Positions 4,283-61,235 of a DNA stretch of 64,000 nt are shown piece by piece. Below the pieces are notes generated by a model. It had not been told where the DNA came from and made no database searches. It saw only the letters and a list, made by a program, of their open reading frames with translations. Position numbers and translations under genes: made by a program. The DNA lies in contig WFMF01000024.1 of NCBI GenBank assembly GCA_011033025.1, positions 62,001-126,000 on the forward strand, written 5' to 3'. This stretch comes from Beroe forskalii. Its lineage: Eukaryota > Ctenophora > Nuda > Beroida > Beroidae. Position 1 is the first letter of the stretch, and each line of letters opens with the position of its first letter.

Positions 4283-4425
4283 GTGACGTTATCAGCTTAT
4301 CAGCTTATCAGTGACGTTATCAGCTTATCGGTGACGTTATCAGCTTATCGGTGACGTTTTCAGCTTATCGGTGACGTTTTAAGCTTATCGGTGACGTTAT
4401 CAGCTTATCGGTGACGTTATCAGCT
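4283..4425. repeat. 20-bp tandem repeat with GATA and CRE half sites
   Basis: About seven copies of a 20-bp unit, GTGACGTTATCAGCTTATCG, with a partial duplication (CAGCTTATCAGCTTATCA) in the first copy and T/A changes in the fourth and fifth (GTTTTCAG, GTTTTAAG). Each unit carries TGACGTTA (CRE half-site-like) and TTATC (GATA complement), so the array could act as a clustered factor-binding site. That role is inferred. It is not a CRISPR array: there are no spacers. Confidence 0.85.
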
Positions 4426-5490
4426 CTCATACTCTCCGATGTCGCTTGTATAGGATCTGCACTACTGCGTCCAATTGCACCACGCAGGTCACTGAGCTTT
4501 CAGAACGTTAGTGCTCATTTTCAGTGTGTACTAGAAATAGAAGCTGAACACAATATCATGTTTCACCTGTTTCATGTAATTGTATACTCAATGTAATGGT
4601 ATAATGTAATTGTGAACTGCATTGCTGTAGATACGAACGGTTCAATACTGTAATACTGCTCTGCGTTCAACTGTAATATTTCATACTGTAAAGTAACGTT
4701 GGTCAAATCACCTGTGTGAAGTAAACCTATATTTGTTGTGTGCAAGATTTGAGCTATCATTCAAAACATTGTCTTTTATCACAATATGATATGACTTAGC
4801 ACACGTGATGGTGGTCCAAATAGATAGATATATAATAATGGATGATACCTATTGTAATGGAAACTATGAAAAAATAAGTTCAATCACTGAACAATATGAA
4901 ATGTCAATTGTCGGACTATGGGTCAAGTACAAATAGCAGACGGTCTGTTGTGACCGACTGACCAGTTGAACCCTTATGATAATGACCTAATTCTAAACAA
5001 CGTACCATTCATAAATGACATTTGACAGTAATCCCATGCAATGTGCTTTACGTGATGTCGTGTAGATGTTCCCTATTGTTAGCCGTCTTATTGATACCAG
5101 ATAATGTTATATCAGCCGTGTTTCATGAATTGTATTGTGAAATTCGTATTGTTCGTCGTGCCTAACTCTGATGTGTCCACATGCAGTGTGTAACACTAAA
5201 CCAAAGACAATGATGATATGCCCTGGAAATTATTGTGATTTGAATCTTCCAATCCATCCATTCATATCCACATAGACTGGAGCTTTTGTATTTAAGGAAG
5301 GTGAACTTCCCAATGTGTACAAAACAGCAACTCCAACTACTTGTCTTTTGGCCGGAACAACAAACTTGTCGTTAAATAAATAACATAACAACTGTCAACT
5401 GTACAATTCACGTAACTGCTACTTAGCATAATTCAGCGTTAATTAACGAATTGCATTATTATCAATGATAACCCATATTGAATCGTCAAT
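4426..5490. other. Non-coding stretch
   Basis: AT-rich DNA with no recognisable exon, RNA gene or repeat family apart from ordinary short A/T runs. It ends where the first large direct repeat begins. Confidence 0.5.
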
Positions 5491-15616: not shown

Positions 15617-15865
15617 GGTACGTCTCCCATGTAAACGGGAGCCTTCATTATCTATGACAATGACGTCACTCAGAAAAATATAATTAAGCGCACCCTGCGC
15701 TTTTTTACATTAGGGTTAGGTTCTGATTAGGGTCAGGATTTGTTAGGTTCAGGGTTAGGATTAAGGTTAGGGTTTGGGTTAGGGCAATGGTTAGGTTTAG
15801 GATACAGAAAAATTGACGTTTAGATCTGTGACGTCACTCAGAGCCGTTTATATGGGAGAGATACC
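15617..15865. mobile_element. 249-bp MITE carrying telomere-like repeats
   Basis: 22-bp terminal inverted repeats: GGTACGTCTCCCATGTAAAC at the left, and the complement of GGTATCTCTCCCATATAAAC at the right. It is flanked by a perfect 8-bp direct repeat, TTAGCAAG (15609-15616 and 15866-15873). Both ends also hold TGACGTCACTCAG. The middle (15713-15800) is degenerate TTAGGG-type DNA such as GGTTAGGATTAAGGTTAGGG. Non-coding. The TSD length fits hAT-like or P-like transposition. Confidence 0.85.
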
Positions 15866-21717: not shown

Positions 21718-22680
21718 AGGGTGGGTAAAAAGTCTGGACCCCCCCTCTCCAGCCAAAACGGTAAAAGATACGGACTTGTCCTTTTGAACATAATTAGTAC
21801 TATCAATTGTGAGTAGAAAAAAGTTGTCAAAGAAAAAAAATAATCAAAAAAATTTATGAAGGAGCAATTTTACAAAATTTGCAGAAATGACGTTATCTGG
21901 TCACGATCTGTCGACGAAATTCCTGATGAAGAACGGTTCAGAATGGTTGGGGCTCATCCTCAATGTTATGGAGTTTTTGTCTGCTTTTCTGCAGTTAAAG
22001 TGATGTGGGTTGCTAAGGAAGTAGGACAGTCATGGAACGGGGATTATTTTAGAAAAGTTTTGACAGAAAACGTGATACCCTTCCTGAAAGATCCAGACTG
22101 CGTTGTTGACCCCGAATCAGTGGTGTTCTAGCACGATCGTGCTCCGTCCATGAGCTCATTAGCAACACAAGCACTGCTTGAAGAAAACGGGGTTGATTTC
22201 TTCGGAAACTCCCAATGGCCAGGTCACTCACCTGACCTCAATCCGACTGAAAATCTTGGAGCAATCATCAAAGAGAGGGTTAAGCGGAAAATGCTCTCGA
22301 AGAAAAGTGAGGACCTCCAAGACATGAAGAGAATTTTCAAAAGAGTTATCGATGAGATAAATAACGACACTACACTCCTGCAAACGCTACTCAGATCAAT
22401 GAGAGAAAGACTAAACGCAGTGGTAGAGAATAATGGTGGAGCCACAAAATATTAGATATCATTGATCAATTGTAAAATTTTGTATATTTACCTGATAATT
22501 TAGCTCACAAAAGTGTCGTCTTAATGCTCCTTCATAAAATCCGACAAAAATAATTTGGAAAATCCAAAATGACTTTTTTCTACTCACAATTGATAGTACT
22601 TATTATGTTCAAAAGGACAAGTCCGTATCTTTTACTGTTTTGGCAGGAGAGGGGGGGGTCCAGACTTTTTACCCACCCTG
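21718..22680. mobile_element. Defective Tc1/mariner-type transposon
   Basis: Flanked by TA on both sides, with inverted repeats of about 110 bp: outer ends CAGGGTGGGTAAAAAGTCTG and its complement, inner parts sharing GGACTTGTCCTTTTGAACAT and its complement. Total length 963 bp, shorter than an intact element, because the N-terminal part of the transposase is missing. It sits between two CRE-flanked units. Confidence 0.92.
21856..22455 (+). pseudogene. Mariner-type transposase, truncated and interrupted
   Basis: The catalytic C-terminal half of a Tc1/mariner (DDE) transposase. It reads MKEQFYKICRNDVIWSRS at the start, then a stop codon TAG at 22129-22131 directly before HDRAPSM, and then continues in the same frame with WPGHSPDLNPTENLG to TAG at 22453-22455. 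The Asp of HDRAP and the Glu of PTENLG are separated by 37 residues, a DD37E-like spacing rather than DD34E/D. The helix-turn-helix DNA-binding region is absent. The stop plus truncation make it non-functional. Confidence 0.9.
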
Positions 22681-45850: not shown

Positions 45851-47582
45851 ATGATGCACTGCAAAAGTTTGGGACTCTTCCTGGTGCTAACTACATTGCA
45901 ACTCCTTCATCTTGGCAATGGAGCTAGCTGCAAGCTTTCTGAGAAAAAGCTTGCCAAATTTTTCAAGACTTACAAAACGGAATGTCTGGAGAATGGATAT
46001 GAATCAAGCTTAGCAGGATGCAAATCACAGGGAGACCCATCACAGCTGAGCAAGAAGCTAAGAAAGAAATGTGATAAGATCAACAACGAACTTGAAGCAT
46101 GTGAGGTGTTATGTGAGGGTAAGCCACTTTTTCCTTTCGTGATCTCAGATTTTGAGGAATCATCAACACACTAAAATATAATTGTACATTAATATGATGT
46201 AAAATTTGGGGAATGGACATTTCATCTCACGACACTTCATTTCATGACACTTCATCTCATGACAATTTATCTTGCAATATGTAAACTCTATGAAACTCTA
46301 TGAAAGGGTTAGGGTTAGGGTATGTGTAGGAGTTAGTGTTCTGGTTACAGGGGTCAGAACAGGGACATGAAGTGTACTGAGATGAAATATCGTGAGATGA
46401 AATGTTGAACTAATTTTTTCTTCCTTGAATTGATTCTCATTGGTAGACTTATCCTATTTGATGACTGATCACGCTTAATTTCAAGGAGAAACCACGCAGT
46501 ACACAATCACTCACGAAACTGGAAGTGGTGAATATGATGGCGGAGTTTCATATGGATACATGTTCACCATAGTCGGTACTAAAGGTGAAACAATTGCTCA
46601 TGAATGTATAGCAAACAGAGTAAAGGGAACTCCTGGAAGCTGCACTTTTTATGATAATGCCAACATTGGAGAAATCAAAGAAGTTAAAATATACAACTCT
46701 GGGAGCAACTTCTGGGCTTTTACATCCCTCACTGTCAATGGACTTAATATTGGATGTGGAAGTGTGGATGACTATAAAACTGAAATATTTCCTACATATG
46801 GAAAGGACGCACCTGAGTATGAAGTCCTTTTTGAAACTGGAAGTGGCAAATATGATGGCGGAGTTTCATATGGATACATGTTCACCATAGTCGGTACAAA
46901 AGGTGAAACAATTGCTCATGAATGTATAGCAAACAGAGTAAAGGGAACCCCTGGAAGCTGCACTTTTTATGATAATGCCAACATTGGAGAAATCAAAGAA
47001 GTTAAAATATACAACTCTGGGAGCAACTTCTGGGCTTTTACATCCCTCACTGTCAATGGACTTAATATTGGATGTGGAAGTGTGGATGACTATAAAACTG
47101 AAATATTTCCTACATATGGAAAGGACGCACCTGAGTATGAAGTCCTTTTTGAAACTGGTAGTGGTGAATATGATGGCGGAGTTTCATATGGATACATGTT
47201 CACCATAGTCGGTACTAAAGGTGAAACAATTGCTCATGAATGTATAGCAAACAGAGTAAAGGGAACTCCTGGAAGCTGCACTTTTTATGATAATGCCAAC
47301 ATTGGAGAAATCAAAGAAGTTAAAATATACAACTCTGGGAGCAACTTCTGGGCTTTTACATCCCTCACTGTCAATGGACTTAATATTGGAGTTGGAAGTG
47401 TGAATGACTATAAAACTGAAATATTTCCTACATATGGAAAGGACGCACCTGAGTATGAAGTCCTTTTTGAAACTGGTAGTGGTGAATATGATGGCGGAGT
47501 TTCATATGGATACATGTTCACCATAGTCGGTACAGAAGGTGAAACAATTGCTCATGAATGTATAGCAAACAGAGTACTGTAA
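45851..47582 (+). CDS. Secreted protein with tandem PLAT-like repeats, truncated by a frameshift
   Basis: Exons 45851-46118 and 46486-47582 join in frame (Gly codon split). Residues 1-25 are a signal peptide (SLGLFLVLTTLQLLHLG). Residues ~27-89 are a Cys-rich helical region (CKLSEKKLAKFF ... CEVLCEG). Then follow tandem units of 106 residues (318 bp) with features of PLAT/LH2 beta-sandwich domains: FETGSGEYDGGVSYGY, VGTKGETIA, NIGEIKEVKIYNSGSN, FWAFTSLTVNG. Three units are complete and nearly identical in DNA; the fourth stops early. A 5-bp insertion (CTGTA) at about 47576 turns NRVKGT into NRVL-stop. The intact remainder of unit four continues in another frame to 47767. PLAT domains bind lipid or protein partners; an extracellular role is inferred. 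The family call is tentative. Confidence 0.75.
46218..46405. mobile_element. MITE with telomere-like core in the PLAT-gene intron
   Basis: Inverted ends ACATTTCATCTCACGA and TCGTGAGATGAAATGT. The inner parts repeat GACACTTCATTTCATGACAC at the left and complementary GAAGTGTACTGAGATGAAAT at the right. The core contains GGGTTAGGGTTAGGG. Non-coding. It lies wholly inside intron 46119-46485. Confidence 0.75.
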
Positions 47583-47767
47583 AGGGAACCCCTGGAAGCT
47601 GCACTTTTTATGATAATGCCAACATTGGAGAAATCAAAGAAGTTAAAATATACAACTCCGGGAGCAACTTCTGGGCTTTTACATCCCTCACTGTCAATGG
47701 ACTTAATATTGGAGGTGGAAGTGTGAATGACTACAAAACAGAAGTGTTCACTATCCAAGATGCTTGA
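46496..47767 (+). repeat. Four tandem 318-bp units encoding PLAT-like domains
   Basis: The landmark GAATATGATGGCGGAGTTTC (AAATATG in unit 2) recurs every 318 bp at about 46528, 46846, 47164 and 47482. Units differ by only a few bases. The last unit carries the 5-bp insertion and the ancestral 3' end (GTGTTCACTATCCAAGATGC then TGA at 47765-47767). Near-identity indicates recent amplification or gene conversion. Confidence 0.9.
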
Positions 47768-56907: not shown

Positions 56908-59900
56908 ATGCCTTTAACGTGAGTATTTTGTGCCCTAACCATGATATTAGATTTACTGTTTTAGATGATTACCATGGTATTTTCTGACCTTACGCTCTAA
57001 TCGGTACTCATATTTCCAAAGACATGAGTTGGTCAAATCACTGCAACTTTGTGGATACTGCGTTTTGCAGATTAGAACATAGAAGAAATTATCATGTATG
57101 TCTTAAAAAGCGCATAAAATTGGGAACTTCGTTATTTAATTTCGGATCTTGATCGTAATGTTTTCACTCAGGGACGAGATACCAACGTACTACCAGATGG
57201 GACCAAGCACCCTCAAGATTCCTAACTCTGTGTTCAAACACAACAGGAAACGGGTTAGCTCAGGAGGGGGACACTTCAAAAACTCAAAAAACATTGAGTT
57301 CGTTACGATATAAGCAAAATATATTGAGCCTCAATTTACTGTTTTGAGTAGGTATAAATTGAACTTTTTGGCGCTAGTTCGTCGCATTTTGATCCCCGAC
57401 GACGATACTGATTACTGGCGCGATAACGGCGTGATACTGGCGTGGTACTGGCGTGGTACTGGCCTGATACTGGCCTAGACGGATCGCTCAATTTACCTAA
57501 AATTATTGCCTTCAGACCTTTCTCAGATCTATTTCAGATCTGTGACAGGCTGTCAGGCATTGGGGCGGCGACTGGTGGCGTTATCTTGCTGCAAGGAGGC
57601 GCACAGTTGCAGCAGTATGACACCGATAGGGACCTCGAGTTCCAACAGGAATTTGTCATCGAAATAACCACTCGAATTGGACAAAAGTTTTTCCTGGTAG
57701 AAAAATTACTGTCTATGCTTTAGCCTCCAGCCCTCAGAACAAAAAGCAAGCTCTTTTTACAGCCCAAGTGACTGGTTTCTTTTGACTGAATTATAACCAT
57801 CTAGCATAAAATTGACAGATAAACTGATAAATAAGGTTTTACTCACCTGCCGTCCTGAATCCTGATGGGCAGTGAACACATAGGGTTAAATTGACATATA
57901 AATCAGGTTTTACTCACACCTGCCATCCAGGAATCCTACTTTATGTGGATGTTTGGGGTGATGGAAGCAGACTTCTTCGGAGCAGTGGCAGTTGACACCT
58001 GCACCAGTTATCTGTTCATGCCACGTCTCCCTGCGTCTTACGCTGTCTGGATGGGAGCGTGAGTGCTGTTCAAACACAAGGAAATATATTGTTAATTAAG
58101 GAATGATTTTGAGTTCGTGTATCTTTGTATCTGTTGATTTGATTAATATACATTTTGATAGAAAGTTTGCCGTTATAAGTTACGATGGAACCAATTTACC
58201 GCACACTCAAGCGAGAACGTGGGGGGGGGGGGGGCGTAAAATATTATTCTTTTATCCCGTAGGTAAATAATTATTCTTTCTTCATTCTTATTCCTGCCAG
58301 CCTGAAAACTCCGGATTATTTCAAAACCCGGTACGGTGTAGACGAGGTCTACTACAGCGACGAGATCTCTGAAATCCTCACCAAACTCCGGCCTTCTGCC
58401 CTGCTTACCTTGCATGGAGTTAACAGCGATAGTAAGGCGAGCTTTACTCCCCCTGAGTTCGAGGGGATGGATCAGTTTAAAGTGGATGATTCGTTCCTGT
58501 ATAACGAGCTAGCGGAGTGGTAAGTGGGGTAAGTGGGAGTGGGGATCGGGAGATCGGGGGAGGGTGAGTGGGGATTGTGGACTGGAGAATGGAAACTGGG
58601 GAATGGGGGGATTCATTTACGGTTTAATGGGAGGTTAAACAAAAGAGGGTTCATAATTGACCTACAAATTCAAAATCGGTTATGATGTTTTGATCAAATT
58701 ACTAATCTACTGTATTTGTAAAGTTGTAAATACAATGAACCCCCCTCTCAGTCGTGTAACGAAGAGTGATGAGGAAATGAAGATCATGAGATACGTTAAT
58801 CAGATCAGCTGTGAAGCGCACAAGGAAGTCCTGAAGATGTTGAGACCTGGGATGATGGAGTACGAGGGGAAGCGTGAGTTGGAGCTGAATTCAATCAAAT
58901 TATGTGTTTATTTTCTTTGGAAAATAACGTTTTTATTACGATAAAATTCGGATTATTAAAAGATTAGAATATGTCGCATAACTACCCTTACCTTTTTCTT
59001 TGTTAATGCTGCTCCATAATCATTTCACTTAGTTCTTTCCTCGGGGAGTCTTGTACTGTTCACTGTATCTAACTCAGGAATCTTCAGGACATTCAAGCAC
59101 TATGCCTACATGAAGGGTGGAATGAGGTTTACTGGGTACACCTGTATTTGCGCTAGGTAAGTGAGTCCCGTGAGATCCTTAAGATCAATAACAAATCTTG
59201 ATTTTATTGAAATGTCATCATGAAAAGTTGCGAAATTTGAAGCTTGTTGCTTGAAATTACTTATACTAATGATGACATTTGCAGTGGAGAAAACTCGGCT
59301 GTACTCCACTACGGACATGCTGGGGAACCTAACGATAAGATGGTCATTGACGGGGATATGCTGTGAGTTCTCGAACGTCAAAAATGTGCTGCTTTTCGTT
59401 TTAAAACTATAGATTTTAGCTTGTTTCTAGGTCTCTTAAGGAACAAATGAAATGATCTAAAAGGTATCACATGATACCTAATATCTTAATAGTTAATATC
59501 TGAATCATATTATAAATGTATGTTTTGTTTAATAAATTGTTCCATTAGTGCTCAACTTAGCCTCGTTTATCACTATCGACCCTCAGTTTATTCGACATGG
59601 GAGCTGAATACGCAGGTTACACTGCAGACATCACTGTTTCCTGGCCAGCTAATGGGAAGTTCACCGAACATCAGAAGTTTGTGTACAACACGTGTTTGAA
59701 GGCCAACAGACGGGTCCTTGACGCCATGAGACCGGGTCAGTTGTTTCTAAATCGTTCTCGGTTCTATATGCACTCTAAACGCAACCCATCTGCACCCGAA
59801 AAAGAATGCTTAGATCGGTCAAAACATTATATTTTGATTTTGCCGTTAAGTAGGCCCAGTCTTCATGGAACGCGCGAAATCATTTGCAATTTTATACGAA

Positions 59901-61235
59901 CGTTCGCGCAAAAAGTCAATTAAGACGCGCGTGAATTCCACACGCGCGCAGAAAAATGAGATTGCGCGTTTTTTGTACCAATGGGGCAATAATTACTTGA
60001 CGCTGCGGTGCAATTTAGCAATTAGCGAACGTTTGTGAAAGCCTCTAAACTTGACTTTGGGCAAATGAACGTTCAAAGACGCCATGACTTAATTCCCTTT
60101 TATGACCGGGTGTATCTTGGATCGAAATGCACCGTCTGGCAGAGCGAACAATTCTAGAGGAATTTATCACAAAGGGCCTCCTACACAACGGTGAGTAAAA
60201 TTGATATTTATGCATTAAATGGTAGAAAAAGATGTCTGCAAGAAATTTTGTCGCATTTTACGCAGATATTTTCGATATTTGCACGTGCCACGCAAGAATA
60301 ACACGGCTAAATTCACCAGGAACTATCGAGGAAATGATAGCAGTTCACATGGGTGCAATATTCATGCCTCATGGCCTCGGACATTTGATTGGCTTGGATG
60401 TTCACGATGTCGGTAAGCGAAGAACATGCATGAAACAAGTGTTTTCGTACGTATCGAATTGTTTTACGGTTTACCAGGTTAATACGAAGATGCCAAAAAC
60501 TTCTCAATAACGCATTCAAGGTTTACTTTGTAATTTTGCATCCAACCAGTATTACCAATTCCCCAGGTGGTTACATCAACGCCCCTCAACGGATCGAGCA
60601 GCCTGGAATTAGGAGCCTCAGGACCACCAGGGACCTAGAGAAGGGCATGGTCATCACAGTTGAACCTGGAGTATACTTTGGGGACGCTTTGAGTTGAATT
60701 GTTATCGTGTCAAATACACATCATAGGCCAGAACTCATATTAGGTTTATTCAGATAGAGTGATTGACAGAGTACTGTGCCTGTTGGCTGCTAATGGTCTG
60801 AACTTTAAGGTCATAACAAAATTTAAGCCCGGAATAAAGGAATATTTTCTCCCCAAAACTAACACTATTCAATTCTTCAGTTGATCGAGGGTGCGTACAA
60901 TAACCCAGAACAGGCCAAGTTCATGAACAAGGAGCTCATTGAACAGTATCGAGGAATGGGTGGGGTTCGTAAAATGCTCAAATGTAGTTTATCGAGCGCA
61001 ATCCAAAGTCCAAACTTGGCAAATCCACACAACGTAGACCATACTCATGGACTGAATAAATTTACTTAAATTTACTCGTTAAAACTTAAAGTTCGTCTAT
61101 TTTAAAATTAATTCTAAAAGACTACTTCCCCAGGTTCGTATTGAGGATGGTGTGGCTGTCACGGAATCTGGAGCAGAACTCCTGTCTCATGACCTGCCCC
61201 GGACAGTGGAAGAAATTGAGAAATTCCTTGCATAG
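56908..61235 (+). CDS. PEPD: Xaa-Pro dipeptidase (prolidase)
   Basis: Fourteen exons: 56908-56918, 57172-57253, 57538-57648, 57931-58058, 58301-58519, 58752-58873, 59078-59156, 59285-59362, 59587-59735, 60110-60190, 60320-60412, 60567-60688, 60881-60964, 61134-61235. They give 486 aa, close to human PEPD. It is a cytosolic metallopeptidase of family M24B that cleaves dipeptides with C-terminal proline. N-terminal domain: [47 protein letters not shown]. Pita-bread catalytic domain: both Asp ligands (FDMG, TADIT), His ([17 protein letters not shown]), Glu (TVEPGVYF) and Glu ([13 protein letters not shown]). The short first exon (MPLT) is the least certain. Introns 3, 9, 12 and 13 are bounded by short direct repeats, and the first three have no GT-AG placement that keeps the protein intact. 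If RNA splicing does not remove them, the gene is broken. Confidence 0.95.
57649..57930 (+). other. PEPD intron 3: GA-AG, 7-bp direct repeat
   Basis: CAGGAAT at 57646-57652 and 57928-57934. The family-consistent join FQQ-ESYFMW requires a GA...AG intron. A GT lies 6 bp further (57655) and would add two residues (Glu-Phe) with a normal AG, so a canonical alternative exists here. The last third of the intron is also tandemly duplicated (GGTTTTACTCAC then CTGCC, at 57835 and 57905). Confidence 0.6.
58201..58236. repeat. Poly-G run in PEPD intron 4
   Basis: GTGGGGGGGGGGGGG then CGTAAAATATT. Mononucleotide run in an intron. Similar runs occur at 62679-62692 and 63078-63092. Confidence 0.85.
59736..60109 (+). 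other. PEPD intron 9: GT-GG, 7-bp direct repeat
   Basis: ACCGGGT at 59731-59737 and 60105-60111. Removing one copy and the 367 bp between restores [16 protein letters not shown], the conserved block of prolidase. Sliding the junction along the repeat gives AC-TG, CC-GA, CG-AC, GG-CC, GG-CG or GT-GG, never GT-AG. The nearest upstream AG (60080 region) introduces a stop. The insert has no clear inverted ends. Confidence 0.7.
60689..60880 (+). other. PEPD intron 12: TT-AG or GT-GA, 4-bp direct repeat
   Basis: TTGA at 60689-60692 and 60881-60884. The alignable join [17 protein letters not shown] needs TT...AG or GT...GA boundaries. A canonical GT at 60671 would delete six residues after the metal-ligand Glu. 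Confidence 0.65.
60965..61133 (+). other. PEPD intron 13: GT-AG within a 7-bp direct repeat
   Basis: GTTCGTA at 60965-60971 and 61134-61140, so the exon start repeats the intron start exactly. Canonical GT-AG boundaries are available. The structure is the same as in introns 3 and 9. Confidence 0.75.

Follow-up and report, generated by a model that had tools for sequence, protein, structure and literature searches.

Introns are born and become spliceable by routes that have long been debated, and few lineages offer births in progress. The closest systems are the following. In Daphnia pulex, the repeats at new introns measure 4-12 bp in the 33 cases with a repeat; of the 120 derived introns 118 are GT-AG, one is GC-AG and one GG-AG (PMC4202315). 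The newly gained introns of Oikopleura are frequently non-canonical and mostly GA-AG (Denoeud et al. 2010, cited in PMC4202315). In Fritillaria borealis and its relatives, 95% of introns are non-canonical, with frequent AG/AC and AG/AT ends and a duplicated U2AF (PMC13326754). Amoebophrya introners fall into families that carry inverted repeats as well as short direct repeats (3-5 nt; PMC7789003), and direct repeats of 4-30 bp have been described at or near the borders of 213 of 213 introns across taxa (PMC11782384). For ctenophores, we found no report of introns of such kind among the papers listed in searches of open-licence literature; in PMC6142364 the word introner appears solely among the references, and the word intron is absent from the main text of the Beroe ovata genome paper. 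Here, we describe introns of the prolidase (PEPD) gene in a 64,000-nucleotide stretch of the Beroe forskalii genome (the window), and of other conserved genes in the same assembly (216 Mb, 1134 contigs), in which direct repeats sit at the exon-intron junctions and some introns lack GT-AG ends in every register that keeps the protein. We consider it rather probable that many of these introns were born by DNA insertion with target duplication, and that some would be removed in register (at the protein-keeping join) without GT-AG.

The features of the prolidase locus, taken from our own exon model and its translation, are as follows.

56908..61235, + strand: prolidase (PEPD) gene, 14 exons and 13 introns, 483 amino acids
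56908-56918, 57172-57253, 57538-57648, 57931-58058, 58301-58519, + strand: exons 1-5
58752-58873, 59087-59156, 59285-59362, 59587-59735, 60110-60190, + strand: exons 6-10
60320-60412, 60567-60688, 60881-60964, 61134-61235, + strand: exons 11-14
57649..57930, + strand: intron 3, in-register ends GA-AG; 7-bp repeat CAGGAAT at 57646-57652 and 57928-57934
58874..59086, + strand: intron 6, GT-CA or TG-AG in the protein-keeping register
59736..60109, + strand: intron 9, in-register ends GT-GG, AC-TG and others, never GT-AG; 8-bp repeat GACCGGGT at 59730-59737 and 60104-60111
59720..59737, + strand: upstream copy at intron 9, GACGCCATGAGACCGGGT, an uninterrupted 18 bases closing exon 9; its final two bases are intronic as drawn
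60078..60111, + strand: downstream copy at intron 9, blocks GACGCCATGA (60078-60087) and GACCGGGT (60104-60111), 16 bases apart
60689..60880, + strand: intron 12, TT-AG (donor TTGAGT) or GT-GA among others; repeat TTGA at 60689-60692 and 60881-60884
60965..61133, + strand: intron 13, GT-AG; 8-bp repeat GGTTCGTA at 60964-60971 and 61133-61140

Exon 1 (11 bases) was placed from splice sites only. The modelled frame has no internal stop; over residues 11-482, its spliced product aligns with human prolidase at E 1.2e-174. The junctions of introns 3, 6, 9, 12 and 13 are gap-free in this alignment, and a one-residue gap lies two residues ahead of the intron 10 junction. A GT-AG register is present in introns 1, 2, 4, 5, 7, 8, 10, 11 and 13 and absent in introns 3, 6, 9 and 12. 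Intron 6 had been counted among nine ordinary GT-AG introns in a preliminary description of this gene; the rest of that group do have a GT-AG register. The same description gave perfect 7-bp repeats for introns 3, 9 and 13, which is exact for intron 3 and one base short for the other two. Its remaining particulars were recovered: the TTGA repeat and the two end pairs of intron 12, the lack of any GT-AG register at intron 9, and the GA-AG ends of intron 3, for which a GT-AG alternative adds two residues. Intron 6 has a GTGAGT donor and a TTCAG acceptor that are out of frame by one base, so that forcing GT-AG adds one residue; alternatively, judged by eye, the GGGG run (58866-58869) may lack one base. 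Intron 12 forced to GT-AG gives a frameshift, and intron 9 stays non-GT-AG even when GT-AG is strongly favoured. In the particular case of intron 9, the two-block downstream copy looks like a duplicated target that was later split by a second insertion.

A second prolidase, on another contig (C291; L001:556-2340), is intronless and occupies one open frame, with a zinc carboxypeptidase (M14) stretch upstream in the same frame (Pfam); it resembles a retrocopy that has become joined to a different gene. At the intron 3 join this paralog reads FQQ-ESYF with nothing added, and at intron 6 it has no additional residues (YEGESTFRHY against YEGKRTFKHY in the gene). It reads PG-x-x-W at intron 9 and is of equal length at intron 12. 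The paralog thus supports the prolidase joins as modelled, and not removal as such, since it is possibly older than the introns.

The preliminary description had proposed tabulating direct repeats and terminal dinucleotides throughout the genome. Our tabulation covers a curated set of 98 introns in 22 genes (24 loci), picked by family and not randomly, and the observation extends beyond prolidase. Introns were modelled with a purpose-written spliced protein-to-genome aligner on conserved genes of the same genome, and are named here by gene and residue. A low intron penalty, used in the initial alignments, produced numerous false introns, and those alignments were not used. Human proteins served as queries, and the joins at CCT6 84 and 192, CCT3 159 and ATP5A 304 were rechecked on PDB sequences. 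A false 30-bp EF1A intron was removed and the EFTUD2 join was moved to the first exon copy. The introns CCT3 159, CCT6 192 and PSMA1 183 were set to the protein-keeping join, with PSMA1 moved to the repeat register for the final counts. The second CCT3 copy contributes its residue-36 intron only, at the protein-keeping join, the 13 prolidase introns come from our gene model, and the remaining rows use a GT-AG-favouring placement. Outside the 98 stand L016-L019, L020 (METAP1D-like), L021, L022, L062 (another CCT7 piece), the PF00009 loci except L031 and L048, L087-L088, PSMC2 and a too-divergent VCP-like locus.

Only in-register repeats at the junction were counted, and they were compared with a null that joins the donor context of one GT-AG intron to the acceptor context of another, which keeps consensus-driven repeats. 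The introns divide into 87 GT-AG, 1 GC-AG and 10 that are neither in any register. Among GT-AG introns, repeats of at least 7 bp occur in 10/87 (1.5 expected) and of at least 9 bp in 4/87 (0.13 expected; 0 of 5000 permutations in both cases). Without prolidase, the figures are 9/78 against 1.62 expected and 4/78 against 0.12 expected (0 of 20000 permutations each). The chance of one in 16,000 for a 7-bp match, put forward in the preliminary description, is too strict because the splice consensus alone generates repeats, with 1.7% of shuffled GT-AG donor/acceptor pairs reaching 7 bp. Its proposal of insertion with target duplication is supported by repeats of 7-19 bp far above this null and by the 18 exon bases that recur at intron 9. 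Five of the ten non-GT-AG introns carry repeats of 11-19 bp. Repeats of at least 9 bp are found in 5/10 non-GT-AG introns and 4/88 others (Fisher 4e-4), or 5/6 and 4/79 without prolidase (Fisher 2e-5). The two variables are coupled here: where GT-AG could be had at the price of one or two altered residues, the protein-keeping join had been taken.

In 11 of the 22 genes there is a repeat of at least 7 bp or an odd (neither GT-AG nor GC-AG) intron. The longest repeat is at CCT3 159, with 19 bp in register in one gene copy and 18 bp in the other. It is followed by 17 bp at PSMA1 183, 15 bp at CCT7 89 and PSMA6 127, and 11 bp at CCT3 36, CCT6 84, CCT6 192, CCT7 196 and V-ATPase A 295. Repeats of 8 bp occur at PSMA1 76, PSMA1 121 and ATP5A 373 (GC-AG), and of 7 bp at CCT2 364, PSMB7 89 and EFTUD2 110. 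An 8-bp repeat with GT-AG ends was also seen at a locus, guessed to be HBS1- or eRF3-like, outside the counted set. By eye the repeat edges are sharp, and the lengths (7, 8, 11, 15, 17 and 19 bp) are not fixed.

Three further observations concern introns in these gene families and beyond. EFTUD2 110 had been taken as an odd join and is actually GT-AG to an earlier exon copy; its locus (L048:1247-1640) holds a tandem partial copy of one exon with short repeated blocks around it. In the METAP1D-like gene (L020:5597-6447), an intron ends in TTGTCG in place of AG, after a 39-bp minisatellite; it is GT-CG in the register that keeps the metal-site spacing (by eye), and a GT-AG alternative loses three residues. 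CCT5 and CCT4 (L060, L061) are intronless single frames, and CCT2, 3, 6, 7 and 8 have several introns.

In the origin that we favour, a staggered break within an exon would have taken up roughly 100-500 bp of DNA, an exon stretch of variable length being duplicated at both ends of the insert, as the repeats suggest. The duplicated exon sequence would supply part of the splice signals, in most cases an AG in the downstream copy. Where a GT happened to fall in register, an ordinary GT-AG intron would result that still bears its birth scar; where none did, the insert may be removed in register by means of a single usable site, either an AG acceptor or a GT donor, whose partner is off consensus, giving end pairs such as GA-AG, CT-AG, AT-AG, TT-AG, GT-TG and GT-GG. 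Prolidase introns 3, 9, 12 and 13 would be examples. The statistics lend good support to insertion with target duplication. The sequences show the repeats, their excess, the absence of a GT-AG register and the protein joins; we infer the insertion events themselves, the youth of the introns and their removal by the spliceosome.

In-register removal without GT-AG appears likely from the way the odd introns are built and from the proteins that they interrupt. An in-register AG acceptor is present in eight of the ten and a GT donor in the other two (prolidase 9 and ATP5A 304), and several of the acceptors follow a T- or C-rich stretch (by eye). GA-AG ends account for 2/10. At CCT6 84 (GA-AG, 11-bp repeat) and ATP5A 304 (GT-TG, 5-bp repeat), the surrounding protein is nearly invariant. 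The in-register joins of CCT6 84 and 192, CCT3 159 and ATP5A 304 are gap-free at the junction against PDB sequences. With the joins backed by these sequences, by human prolidase and by the paralog, the preliminary proposal of relaxed splicing is supported in part, the removal that it invokes being suggested by protein conservation; non-removal in such conserved genes would be hard to sustain.

CCT3 is present as two inverted copies about 40 kb apart (L053 and L059; G000:C558), both with the residue-159 repeat intron, and over 481 codons the copies are separated by 30 synonymous changes and 0 nonsynonymous ones, which is compatible with two working genes or with a pair of alleles. The intron itself is 97% identical between the copies; constraint on it was considered and set aside, the adjacent exon sequence being at least as similar.

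Known causes of unusual splice ends were also considered. U12-type introns have an RTATCC donor, and none of the ten in-register donors starts with RTATCC. At least 10 U1 genes were found (41 of 3781 candidates scored), of which 8 begin ATACTTACCTG and 2 begin ATACTAACCTG (L078, L086), so that an altered U1 as the cause of the odd donors was not seen among the genes found. As a separate observation, the ATACTAACCTG start would pair with GTTAGT donors, and GTTAGT opens 4 curated GT-AG introns.

There are possible alternative explanations for the odd introns. The inserts could be removed by ordinary GT-AG sites a few bases out of register, the protein gaining or losing one or two residues and nothing non-canonical taking place. 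In-frame GT-AG alternatives of this sort exist for 5/10 odd introns: prolidase 3 and 6, with the additions given above, CCT3 36 (-1), CCT6 192 (-2) and PSMA1 183 (+1 relative to the in-register join and +2 relative to human). At CCT6 192 the alternative would remove V and E, although the best PDB match is complete there (MVEIMEM). Against this explanation, CCT6 84, ATP5A 304 and prolidase 9 remain non-GT-AG with GT-AG strongly favoured, and GT-AG is reached only through a frameshift at CCT3 159 (both copies) and prolidase 12; we regard it as unlikely for the class. A quite improbable account is that the odd introns lie in broken alleles or in a decaying pseudogene, or stem from errors of assembly, and that nothing removes the segments. 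Prolidase 6 would become GT-AG with one more G in its GGGG run, the prolidase 12 donor TTGAGT is a single base off GTGAGT, and there is an intronless prolidase paralog. Against this, the prolidase frame is stop-free and aligns with the human protein along residues 11-482, single base errors do not yield repeats of 11-19 bp, and the residue-159 intron is common to both CCT3 copies, with their purely synonymous divergence. Moreover, the family search gave one locus for ATP synthase alpha, and CCT6 has one among the loci identified (loci on C481 and C522 being unassigned).

An intron-carrying transposon or introner family whose target-site duplications are the repeats would account for the position of the repeats at the insertion ends, and the CCT6 192 insert does contain part of a dispersed repeat, found in at least 31 further places in the genome. 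The four prolidase inserts matched only themselves in a DNA search (2 of 2 candidates scored), and among ten other inserts CCT6 192 alone gave dispersed matches, for part of its length, with 40 of 109 candidates scored and common words skipped, so that single copy is unproven for the others. On these scored matches, such a family is not favoured as the insert source. Since repeat length varies and no common terminal motif is seen (by eye), staggered breaks fit better than a transposon with a fixed duplication, which makes this source very improbable. Removal of the segments from DNA by recombination between the repeats, like the internal eliminated sequences of ciliates, would suit bounding repeats of variable length and would explain exact removal without splice sites. 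Each of the ten odd introns has either an AG acceptor or a GT donor in register, which is why splicing with one good site is favoured over removal at the DNA level, and the odd class grades into repeat-bearing GT-AG introns; DNA elimination would thus be an extreme long shot. A further idea, which bears on tolerance more than on origin, is that the repeat is the reason an intron is tolerated, identical ends allowing exact removal by a one-good-site spliceosome or another route. This is speculative and rather unlikely; if it were true, the lineage would have an intron entry path that needs no ready-made pair of splice sites.

Several observations weigh against birth by insertion with in-register removal, in addition to the soft GT-AG alternatives at half of the odd introns, the coupling of the Fisher variables and the dispersed matches of the CCT6 192 insert. 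Half of the genes (TCP1, CCT8, ATP5B, ATP6V1B, PSMA2, PSMA3, PSMA7, PSMB2, PSMB4, PSMB5 and EEF1A1; 11/22) have neither a 7-bp repeat nor an odd intron, and prolidase introns 6 and 12 have little or no repeat. PSMC2, held out from the counts, has 5 GT-AG introns and 1 GC-AG intron, none odder, with a 7-bp repeat in 1/6. The repeat excess is measured in this one genome. The CCT3 test is weakened by uneven divergence, with only 2 of the 30 changes within the first 545 bases of a coding sequence of about 1440, a stretch that includes the odd-intron site; the intron may therefore have been homogenised recently by conversion, or the copies may be alleles. The U1 genes found are ordinary, none of them suggesting a non-GU donor. 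Pairing between intron ends was not detected (mean z -0.2 for non-GT-AG and +0.3 for GT-AG introns), the strongest values among the 21 introns listed being EFTUD2 (GT-AG; z -3.0) and CCT3 159 (z -2.4). Antisense of the repeat within the insert shows at most a weak tendency (mean z -0.7), and CCT3 159 alone is low in both tests (antisense z -2.3). Finally, GT-AG ends are reported almost everywhere in a survey of G-alpha genes in which ctenophores are represented (PMC5896119).

The mitochondrial contig (13.3 kb) bears on the lineage in which these introns occur. It encodes cox1, cox2, cox3, cob, nad1 and two antiporter-type nad genes (Pfam). By eye, further open reading frames (ORFs) correspond to nad2, nad3, nad4L and nad6; two more, located after nad5, have no Pfam family. 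ARAGORN with bacterial settings found no mitochondrial tRNAs. A TGA codon lies inside cox1, and AGA is used at positions that we take to be arginine in animal cox1. With AGA at these sites and a ctenophore-like gene set, the appendicularian context raised in the preliminary description is not supported for the animal itself; we read the gene set as that of a ctenophore and not of an appendicularian. The mitochondrion of Beroe forskalii has been described as using table 4 and having two unidentified ORFs after nad5, without atp6/atp8 and tRNAs (PMC6991124); the contig, which likewise lacks atp6/atp8, agrees with this and would place the animal perhaps near Beroe. The first part of the 4311-4694 ORF recurs, nearly unchanged, at the beginning of one ORF after nad5 (L010:7546-8652), as if duplicated into it (by eye).

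Other features of the window stand apart from prolidase. A coding-looking tandem array at 46515-47743 has a 318-bp unit (106 codons) in 3.8 copies at 97%. ORFs at 21844-22452 resemble the remnant of a Tc1/mariner transposase (by eye), and a degenerate TTAGGG-like array at 15710-15801 lies beside a long tract rich in TTCCC (13.6-14.9 kb). In Pfam, eight ORFs of the window other than prolidase gave no family, hits below the cut-off or hits driven by repeats (the 318-bp array), and Rfam gave nothing at the gathering score on the window, L054 and L048.

The genome thus offers insertion scars in several conserved genes, including a long-scar class without GT-AG, which would be the expected first stage of intron birth. 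If RNA confirmed in-register removal, an animal spliceosome, or another route, would be removing inserts before a standard pair of sites has been acquired. Comparison with the systems described above places these introns as follows. The survey across taxa searched up to 80 bp around intron borders (PMC11782384), whereas only in-register junction repeats are counted here, against a consensus-preserving null. As in Amoebophrya, direct repeats overlap the exon-intron boundaries and the splice ends vary (PMC7789003). Unlike in Amoebophrya (PMC7789003), the repeats here are longer, dispersed matches were found for part of one insert among the matches scored, and no end pairing was found. Pairing of intron ends marks the non-conventional introns of euglenids and Amoebophrya. 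With Fritillaria the genome shares animal introns that escape GT-AG, although 87 of the 98 here are GT-AG, unlike the larvacean-type majority (PMC13326754). The parallel that the preliminary description drew with larvacean introns is nevertheless apt for Oikopleura: both are animals with non-canonical introns, newly gained in Oikopleura (PMC4202315) and probably so here, the ends here being more varied and tied to junction repeats. Daphnia pulex introns have been followed by presence/absence and cDNA (PMC4202315), whereas those of Beroe forskalii are known from the sequence of one assembly, in which repeats reach 19 bp and 10/98 introns are non-GT-AG in register. In both, gain by insertion at breaks would leave the same scar, and the secondary insertions described for Daphnia can be likened to prolidase intron 9 (PMC4202315); the end repeats found here are exon-derived, variable in length and above chance, as in the Daphnia type.

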